From Saprospiraceae bacterium (GTDB taxonomy: Bacteria; Bacteroidota; Bacteroidia; Chitinophagales; Saprospiraceae), in contig JAHDFQ010000024.1 of assembly GCA_020628085.1 (NCBI GenBank), positions 1-39,357 on the forward strand: DNA of 39,357 nt, written 5' to 3'. Every line of letters begins with the position of its first letter. Positions within the stretch are counted from its first letter, which is position 1. A program made the position numbers and the translations under genes. A model generated the notes under the pieces. It did no database searches. It was not told where the DNA came from and saw nothing but the letters and a program-made list of their open reading frames with translations. Of this stretch, positions 5,731-6,212 are shown piece after piece.

Positions 5731-5760
5731 TGGTCGTTACTGGATTCGAACCAGTGACCT
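5731..5760 (-). pseudogene. tRNA-Val 3'-half fragment
   Basis: The 30 nt 5731-5760 are identical to 6043-6072, i.e. the T-arm, 3' acceptor strand and the AGGTC variable region of the intact tRNA-Val. The identity stops exactly where the anticodon stem would begin. There an 18-nt hairpin (5761-5778) takes its place, and beyond that lies the 3' end of the GIY-YIG gene. It cannot fold into a tRNA. Confidence 0.85.
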
Positions 5761-5778
5761 TCCCGACTTTAGTCGGGA
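5761..5778. repeat. GC-rich hairpin replacing the tRNA-Val anticodon arm (3' half)
   Basis: TCCCGAC-TTTA-GTCGGGA is a perfect 7-bp stem with a 4-nt loop. On the minus strand it carries the TAA stop of the GIY-YIG gene. It is closely related to 6167-6184. Confidence 0.8.
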
Positions 5779-6038
5779 CGCTTAGATTCTTTATTGATAT
5801 GTTCAACCCACTGTATCACACGATGTTTATTTTTCCAACTTTTGAGTTTTTGCTCCTGTTGATATGCTTCGGAGCGAGTATCATATTGTTTATAGAAAAA
5901 AATAATCCAAGGACGTTTATATCTAGTACTTTTAACTCTACCATTATTATGATAATCCAATCGCTGTTGAATATTTTGTGTTTGTCCAATGTAGAACTGC
6001 CCGTTTTTCTGAGATTCTAGAATATAAACGTAATACAT
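5769..6038 (-). CDS. Small GIY-YIG family endonuclease embedded in the tRNA cluster
   Basis: The 89-residue protein has the full GIY-YIG core: YVYIL at residues 3-7, FYIGQT at 15-20 (YIG 16-18), the conserved Arg26 in QQRLDYHN, and the metal-binding Glu62 in EAYQQEQKLKSW. It resembles the short UvrC/YhbQ-type stand-alone nucleases common in Bacteroidota. Its ATG lies only four bases after the 3' end of the intact tRNA-Val on the same strand, leaving no room for its own promoter. Its TAA stop lies inside the hairpin that abuts a tRNA-Val 3' half. If the stop were skipped, the same frame would continue SREGHWFESSNDH through the tRNA fragment. The layout suggests a homing- or mobile-type nuclease linked to tRNA-Val. 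Activity is not shown by sequence alone. Confidence 0.85.
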   Translation of the reverse strand: MYYVYILESQKNGQFYIGQTQNIQQRLDYHNNGRVKSTRYKRPWIIFFYKQYDTRSEAYQQEQKLKSWKNKHRVIQWVEHINKESKRPD

Positions 6039-6042
6039 ATTG

Positions 6043-6117
6043 TGGTCGTTACTGGATTCGAACCAGTGACCTCTGCCCTGTCAAGGCAGCGCTCTAAACC
6101 AACTGAGCTAAACGACC
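6043..6117 (-). tRNA. tRNA-Val (anticodon GAC)
   Basis: The minus strand reads GGTCGTTTAGCTCAGTTGG..., with anticodon stem CTGCC/GGCAG, loop TTGACAG (anticodon GAC), T-arm ACTGG-TTCGAAT-CCAGT, acceptor GGTCGTT/AACGACC and discriminator A. It is 75 nt with no encoded CCA. It is intact, unlike the two half copies at 5731-5760 and 6187-6212. Confidence 0.93.
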
Positions 6118-6166
6118 AATTTGTAAAAAAGTTAATACAACTAATTCTAAAATATCATAAAGACCT

Positions 6167-6184
6167 TCCCGATGGAAATCGGGA
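6167..6184. repeat. GC-rich hairpin replacing the tRNA-Val anticodon arm (5' half)
   Basis: TCCCGAT-GGAA-ATCGGGA is a perfect 7-bp stem with a 4-nt loop. It is preceded by GACCT, as in the intact tRNA, and followed by CACTCT where the intact gene has CGCTCT. It is a sister of 5761-5778. Confidence 0.8.
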
Positions 6185-6186
6185 CA

Positions 6187-6212
6187 CTCTAAACCAACTG
6201 AGCTAAACGACC
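6187..6212 (-). pseudogene. tRNA-Val 5'-half fragment
   Basis: The 26 nt 6187-6212 are identical to 6092-6117, the 5' acceptor strand, D-arm and first variable bases of tRNA-Val. The anticodon arm is replaced by the hairpin at 6167-6184. After GACCT (6162-6166) the T-arm side is absent. It lies upstream of the intact tRNA-Val on the same strand. Confidence 0.85.

Follow-up and report, generated by a model that had tools for sequence, protein, structure and literature searches.

The window (the whole 39,357-nucleotide stretch of Saprospiraceae DNA analysed here) probably holds one copy of a compact, self-restoring mobile element that lives at tRNA genes and encodes an Slx1-like nuclease matched to its own hairpin. 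Comparison across related loci shows that the architecture recurs, that hairpin family and nuclease clade are paired, and that the unit has spread over tRNA isotypes; the nuclease would cleave its cognate hairpin or the target tRNA and the element would move between cells, as we infer from these patterns. That an intact tRNA, hairpins and a GIY-YIG gene form a discrete unit at tRNA genes had already been proposed from the letters of the window, and such a unit does recur widely.

In outline, the element would have two components, a small gene for an Slx1-like GIY-YIG nuclease and an incomplete host tRNA gene copy, with a hairpin of the nuclease's own lineage replacing or interrupting one arm of the copy; the tRNA-homologous stretches would serve as landing arms. 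The process would begin with a cut by the enzyme, placed at its own hairpin or close by, or else in the target tRNA; host recombination would then join element and resident gene through tRNA homology, inserting the nuclease gene and leaving both an intact, functional tRNA (composed of a resident and an element-borne part) and a broken, hairpin-bearing copy. Depending on the side of the hairpin at which the crossover falls, the order would be hairpin copy, GIY gene, intact tRNA or else intact tRNA, GIY gene, hairpin copy, and repeated rounds would give tandem arrays and two-sided loci like that of the window.

Whether such elements constitute a new class, in which a minimal Slx1-like nuclease reads its own hairpin as a DNA structure, the hairpin rides in a tRNA-gene copy where an arm would be, and the adjoining tRNA sequence offers near-universal homology for landing in distant bacteria, the essential tRNA always being rebuilt, is in our judgement evenly balanced; the class would be represented in the majority of the phylum's sampled genomes and also on contigs from several further phyla. 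No account of bacterial GIY-YIG genes with hairpin-bearing tRNA copies was found among the openly licensed papers listed, and since an occupied allele keeps its target (if this is the tRNA alone) and the enzyme is neither a RAYT nor an integrase, the element is not filed here under a known family, although it would work much as fungal mitochondrial endonuclease ORFs do. Few DNA sequences are as strongly conserved as tRNA genes, so that landing through tRNA homology with rebuilding of the gene could carry such an element across wide taxonomic distances at little cost to the host.

The tRNA-Val locus and its nuclease

All features of the locus lie on the minus strand. A 26-nt tRNA-Val 5' piece (6212-6187), identical to the intact tRNA in a BLAST match, is followed by the left hairpin TCCCGATTTCCATCGGGA (6184-6167), which occupies the position of the anticodon arm in this 5' partial copy, and directly thereafter by AGGTC, the tRNA variable loop (6166-6162). 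A 44-nt spacer without a GIY gene (6161-6118) separates the 5' partial copy from the intact tRNA-Val(GAC) at 6117-6042, called by ARAGORN, scoring 71.7 bits as an Rfam tRNA and identical at 76/76 positions to that of the same-genus genome G001. The ATG of the 89-aa GIY-YIG ORF (6038-5769; Pfam PF01541, E 1e-18) is the fourth base past the end of this tRNA, and its TAA stop sits in the loop of the right hairpin TCCCGACTAAAGTCGGGA (5778-5761), itself in place of the anticodon arm of a 3' partial copy. The 3' piece that follows (5760-5728, again a BLAST match) is identical to tRNA-Val over 33 nt, 31 of them inside the tRNA plus the next two bases, and beyond it lies a host neighbour, tRNA-Pro(GGG) (5714-5640; ARAGORN). 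The sequence-only reading had named these parts apart from AGGTC, and the 26-nt 5' piece, intact tRNA-Val, nuclease gene, hairpins and tRNA-Pro are confirmed; the 3' piece had rightly been called identical to tRNA-Val, at a length of 30 nt that is corrected here.

The exact 26-nt and 33-nt matches to tRNA-Val are far beyond chance, and the first 18 nt of either piece occur elsewhere in the window solely in the intact tRNA-Val. That same reading had taken the two pieces for halves of one tRNA-Val gene, opened at its anticodon arm in a single event, with similar hairpins at the two ends of the inserted unit. The hairpins are present in both pieces, but rather than simply marking a cut in the anticodon arm, each substitutes for the 17-nt arm in its own broken copy, so that AGGTC continues the left piece beyond its hairpin and AAGCG (GAGCG in the tRNA) precedes the hairpin of the right piece. 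The pieces are two overlapping partial copies, not a single gene cut in two. Relatives bear on the same point: in G001, tRNA-Val lies 6 nt ahead of tRNA-Pro, both the GIY gene and the 3' piece being absent, and is preceded by an upstream 5' piece with another hairpin at another place; G002 likewise carries an upstream 5' piece with a different hairpin. Given the overlapping halves, and relatives with the 5' piece alone, one insertion opening a single gene at its anticodon arm was rejected as the sole reading. As G001 and G002 keep the 5' piece, the locus of the window would stem from two insertions, or else from a single two-sided one that has since lost its downstream half in the relatives.

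No integrase or long cargo was found between the tRNA copies of the window, the content being the GIY ORF, spacer and hairpins. Rfam at gathering scores returned two tRNAs from the window and nothing else, with no group I intron; the locus differs from a group I intron with a homing ORF in that the window has no intron RNA and the intact tRNA-Val is uninterrupted, with no structured intron RNA within it.

Pfam PF01541 was found in 33/33 family members, and Y5, Y16, R26, H30 and E62 are invariant in the alignment of 33 relatives. A search of the 89-aa window protein for any further domain found none, and no added DNA-binding domain. By sequence, the nearest solved structures are the UPF0213 entry 1zg2 (E 5.8e-15) and SLX1 (E 2.5e-7), with I-TevI at just E 0.0038, and a fold search with the predicted model (pLDDT 94.8) agrees in placing UPF0213 and SLX1 ahead of I-TevI. 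The protein is a minimal GIY-YIG enzyme of the Slx1/UPF0213-like lineage, not an I-TevI-like homing enzyme and, being GIY-YIG, no Y1 tyrosine (HUH) transposase. SLX1 is a nuclease acting on branched DNA, in agreement with the titles of its structure entries, and this activity fits an enzyme that reads a hairpin. At several loci, L066, L059 and L014 among them, the GIY reading frame runs into the partial tRNA copy, which supplies the C-terminus of the protein (for example NSSVGSEHPD in L066); what annotation gives as the end of such a protein is thus translated tRNA. SOS regulation was considered and set aside, the GIY protein named in the accessible text of PMC8565304 being a different protein.

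Linkage to tRNA genes and distribution

A search with the window protein finds five GIY genes in the window's own genome. Besides that of the window, two stand in tandem ahead of a tRNA-Arg, each preceded by a partial 5' copy and a hairpin (an N run between them makes an assembly effect possible), one lies between a hairpin-bearing tRNA-Ala 5' piece and an intact tRNA-Ala, and one reaches the contig end inside another tRNA-Ala piece; all five are thus tRNA-linked. The same protein matches 58/100 relatives at E 1e-3, leaving 42/100 without a match, and an alignment of 33 proteins (A1) matches 256/392 sampled genomes of the phylum at E 1e-6, leaving 136/392 without. If the proposed reading is true, this is a common mobile element, often present in several copies per genome, that annotation shows merely as short GIY-YIG proteins, some with tRNA-derived C-termini.

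An intact same-strand tRNA lies within 300 nt at 65/94 loci from the own genome and relatives (window protein alone; relatives' loci taken at E 7.3e-7 or stronger) and at 84/90 phylum-sample loci, the latter figure being conditional on the choice of A1, which was made from tRNA-adjacent genes. Locus counts of this kind are not all independent, because some loci overlap (for example L002/L003, L006/L035 and L013/L038) and L190, L192 and L197 repeat loci of the first set. A scan of named-species genomes with a narrower alignment (A2) gave 204 loci, and among the best 80 of these 61 had an intact same-strand tRNA within 300 nt: 45 from Bacteroidota, 3 each from Cloacimonadota, Ignavibacteriota and Fidelibacterota, 2 from Nitrospirota, 1 each from Armatimonadota, Levyibacteriota, Falkowiibacteriota and Chloroflexota, and 1 without a phylum label. 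Several contigs from outside Bacteroidota have the identical layout, including the TCCCG hairpin, among them an NC10 contig with partial copies only, and the Chloroflexota contig L335 has the two-sided order of the window; single contigs from other phyla come from metagenome bins and may be mis-binned. In all three locus sets, the nearest tRNA within 600 nt is never on the opposite strand.

For controlled counts, identical proteins were removed, which left 289 distinct ones from 328 genes; the tree set excludes genes of less than 180 nt aligned length or with stops. An intact same-strand tRNA lies within 600 nt of 227 of these genes, 29 more have a partial copy alone and 33 have neither, so that 256/289 are tRNA-linked in total. 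Homologues with no tRNA association had been named beforehand as evidence against a tRNA-targeting unit; the 33 that exist include the whole of a separate clade (ten genes, marked by W(S/T/N)R motifs), which we take to be UPF0213-like, and several of the others are near contig ends or still have the family hairpin. Partial tRNA copies (at least 20 nt at 90% identity to any intact tRNA of the set, with intact tRNAs masked) adjoin 178/289 genes as against 1/391 control windows of similar length placed 1.1 kb or more away. Beyond the GIY gene, as seen from the tRNA, a partial copy of that tRNA lies in 169/187 tRNA-GIY pairs, compared with 10/169 control regions, and this holds in either order (GIY first 47/49, tRNA first 122/138, one further pair lying at a contig edge). 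Calls of "Stop" or "???", which are hairpin-bearing copies accepted by ARAGORN, are included in the 300-nt linkage, 289-gene control and 135-gene isotype counts, and excluded from the far-side-copy, hairpin-position, flank and two-sided counts. The insertion site was also sought from the ends of the partial copies, which fall at varied points.

The two-sided layout described for the window recurs at 53/141 comparable tRNA-first loci, which have an additional partial copy at most 200 nt upstream, a few of these copies being neighbouring real tRNAs, and five tRNAs are flanked by GIY genes on both sides. Near-identical tandem arrays of five units occur at L213 (G389) and L215 (G331), both in single-contig genomes, where GIY gene and hairpin-bearing tRNA piece repeat behind one intact tRNA; array periods put the unit at about 0.3-0.5 kb. 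At L303, L315 and L094, upstream units of about 90 nt (flank, 5' piece, hairpin) stand in tandem without a GIY gene and resemble a non-autonomous form.

Strict same-strand linkage, together with the branched-DNA activity of SLX1 (in line with entry titles), would suit a domesticated host function, in which an Slx1-like nuclease at tRNA genes resolves hairpins or conflicts and the hairpin copy is a regulatory site. We regard this as highly improbable in view of the patchy presence of the gene, at the limits used, among relatives and across the phylum, the tandem arrays, the switching between isotypes and the same-genus sites without a GIY gene. Phages and plasmids were rejected as vehicles: the single query protein used had no match in plasmid and phage collections, one scan of viral contigs gave just L137 (a 42% identical relative, with no tRNA in the 10 kb examined), and a second viral-contig scan found no relative. 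An association of tRNA-less GIY genes with rRNA was likewise dropped, ten loci (eight of them, by eye, without an intact tRNA) giving no Rfam match.

Hairpin families and nuclease clades

Three hairpin families recur at these loci, each with characteristic positions in the tRNA copy. Among TCCCG hairpins, 137/149 have at least one flank matching a tRNA and 81 have both; at these 81 sites the hairpin exactly replaces the anticodon arm in 42 and a fixed T-arm stretch in 20. TCCGCC hairpins share one common position in 8/10 cases, and CCYGYC hairpins are pure insertions at a single D-arm site in 4/12. In TCCCG hairpins the second inner pair of the stem is complementary in 120/142 as against 33% expected from base composition (T-A 54, C-G 36, A-T 27), a figure to be taken as an indication and not as a probability, since homologous loci are not independent.

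On a FastTree tree of the 289 nuclease proteins, built from few columns, the three families (167 genes, the 122/289 without a single hairpin family being excluded from hairpin counts) require 7 changes, compared with a shuffled mean of 40.7. For the same 135 genes, hairpin family takes 7 changes (shuffled 35.9), tRNA isotype 38 (93.5) and gene order 20 (32.0); isotype is therefore tied to the nuclease too, and hairpin family more tightly. Another count of isotype on the tree gave 40 changes against a shuffled 53.6. Eight genomes hold two or three hairpin families (28 genes), and here labels can be shuffled within each genome: the mean is then 18.2 and the minimum 12 as against the real 7, with 0/200 shuffles as low, and for those 28 genes alone the mean is 11.7 and the minimum 7 as against 3. 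Because hairpin family follows nuclease clade even within genomes, the hairpin belongs with the nuclease lineage and not with the genome. If the proposed reading holds, this pairing would make a DNA-structure recognition code directly testable, with occupied and empty alleles as substrates already to hand.

Some of the palindromes are dispersed. In the window's genome, 9/12 TCCCGA palindromes lie away from tRNA pieces, and CCTGCC palindromes have sites away from tRNAs in 8/12 genomes (9 in G000, 18 in G079, 11 in G093), with a few at GIY loci and none for a reversed-pattern control. At L169 and L177, some CCTGCC..GGCAGG palindromes sit cleanly inside short tandem repeats (gacacaa), in the manner of a REP-like dispersed repeat. 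Such sites lend something to the view that the hairpins are independent, REP-like palindromes that enter dispensable DNA and have no connection with the GIY gene; this appears improbable, given that hairpin family follows nuclease clade inside one genome, that the position in the tRNA copy recurs for each family, and that TCCCG hairpins stand by GIY genes in other phyla. A simple dispersed repeat was accordingly rejected as the origin of the hairpins: dispersed copies do exist, but they leave the clade pairing unexplained.

Occupied sites, empty sites and known systems

The clearest comparison of sites comes from genus g62, in which tRNA-Val(TAC) is identical (77/77) across the genomes G063, G095 and G083. 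In G063 there is no GIY gene, and the tRNA is followed by the terminator aagtcatctcttttgagatgactt. In G095 the tRNA is followed by a foreign terminator, a GIY gene and a broken, hairpin-bearing 3' copy, behind which stands the terminator aagtcatctcttttgaggtgactt, as in G063; the gene beyond the displaced terminator differs from that of G063. In G083 the element is followed, by eye, by the downstream gene of G063, and both terminators are of the foreign type. Comparison of the three indicates an insertion in which the tRNA was rebuilt with a foreign terminator and the apparently native one displaced behind the broken copy. The restoration of the tRNA on insertion, anticipated in the sequence-only reading, is to this extent borne out in one genus trio, itself imperfect in the downstream gene of G095 and the terminators of G083. 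All three genomes keep an upstream 5' piece without a GIY gene.

Alleles without the element thus exist in G063 (against G095 and G083) and, for the downstream part, in G001 (against the window). G001 partly provides the empty-site relative that had been asked for, in lacking both the GIY gene and the 3' piece; like G063, it still keeps the upstream 5' piece. In occupied alleles the intact tRNA matches its counterpart in the empty allele at every position (77/77 and 76/76), which would leave it unprotected if the enzyme cuts plain tRNA genes. A further route to empty sites, synteny with the downstream gene pcm (matched in 58/60 genomes, own genome included), showed a tRNA in 0/29 relatives' loci examined.

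Differing alleles of the two tRNA copies were found at two loci alone, other copies being identical or, by their look, decayed or hairpin-broken. At L006 in G054, the intact tRNA-Ala has the T-arm GCAGG/CCTGT and the partial copy AGGGG/CCCCT, and in the same-genus G487 a displaced tRNA-Ala 3' part has the T-arm AGGGG/CCCCT, equal to the partial copy of G054; the pattern is as expected if the intact tRNA-Ala of G054 is a hybrid gene. A second compensated T-stem difference between copies occurs at L236. The tRNA-Ala 3' part of G487 (L384; C32 75205-75252) adjoins a gene read backwards, presumably recombinase-like, and may be the distal end of an island responsible for its displacement.

The flank that follows the intact tRNA could be compared with the one behind the partial copy for 66/138 pairs with the intact tRNA first and 12/50 in the other order, pairs without an exactly matching copy end, flank or contig being dropped. 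With classes set by an alignment-score cut-off, flanks in the tRNA-first order are unrelated in 25/66, alike in 36/66 and intermediate in 5/66, and in the GIY-first order 7 are the same, 3 different and 2 intermediate out of 12. The loci with alike flanks, and the near-identical tandem arrays, would also follow if nothing moved, that is, if tRNA genes were duplicated locally, spare copies decayed and small GIY genes rode along through co-expression with tRNAs. This is decidedly improbable: the unrelated flanks and the foreign terminator of G095 already disfavour it, hairpin positions recur, and the unit is seen across many isotypes and in contigs from outside the phylum.

A more serious alternative, though still an unlikely one, is free-standing homing, in which the nuclease would cut the plain tRNA gene of an empty allele, double-strand-break repair would copy the element in, and the hairpin copy would be an uncuttable remnant. 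The layout of resident part, inserted part, endonuclease ORF and displaced native end matches hybrid genes of Glomus and Allomyces as presented in the accessible text of PMC3630166, the terminator displaced at G095 fits the same scheme, and nuclease clades are strongly tied to isotype in both counts given above. Against homing, the occupied locus retains an intact tRNA identical to the empty allele, the tie of hairpin to clade is tighter than that of isotype, which a mere remnant would not explain, and the proteins have no added DNA-binding domain and are closer to SLX1 than to I-TevI. Empty alleles exist as they do for homing genes, whereas the intact tRNA of the occupied allele is unlike homing if the target is the tRNA gene by itself.

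Other known systems share single features with the proposed element. REP palindromes pair with RAYT, a Y1 tyrosine transposase; common to both is a family of short palindromes proper to one nuclease lineage, with copies of some palindromes dispersed, but here the enzyme is GIY-YIG rather than a Y1 tyrosine transposase and the palindromes lie inside tRNA copies. Genomic islands integrate at tRNA 3' ends with the gene reconstituted, and thus share both target and reconstitution, whereas the unit described here has no integrase, measures about 0.3-0.5 kb and can displace 5' as well as 3' tRNA parts. In the accessible text of PMC13096335, SegB of phages T4/T6 is a free-standing GIY-YIG gene beside a tRNA gene, with recombination and segmental amplification around it, and SegB of T-even phages is the closest tRNA-linked GIY-YIG enzyme that we met; it differs in belonging to phage genomes, with no hairpin-bearing partial tRNA copies described in that text, whereas the genes here are chromosomal and at many isotypes. 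The accessible text of the GIY-YIG superfamily survey PMC1564403 yielded no tRNA link.

By analogy, the closest described mechanism is that of fungal mitochondrial endonuclease ORFs, as set out in the accessible text of PMC3630166, where mobile ORFs in Allomyces atp6 and in Glomus atp6, atp9, cox2 and nad3 bring a replacement gene end; the Glomus ORFs are LAGLIDADG except for GIY-YIG in atp9. There the inserted part restores the gene, an endonuclease ORF comes next and the native end is displaced downstream (PMC3630166, same text), as would be the case at the loci described here. The present loci differ in being on bacterial chromosomes and at tRNA rather than protein genes, in that either the 5' or the 3' part is displaced, and in having a cognate hairpin in the displaced copy and a minimal, Slx1-like enzyme. 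A GIY gene of another branch, at L228 (G389 C1 near 2617851), has no tRNA beside it and is bordered by the inverted repeats ACCCCGTCAAATA and TATTTGACGGGGT; it seems to lie within another reading frame and to split it, and might be a kindred element that targets a protein gene.
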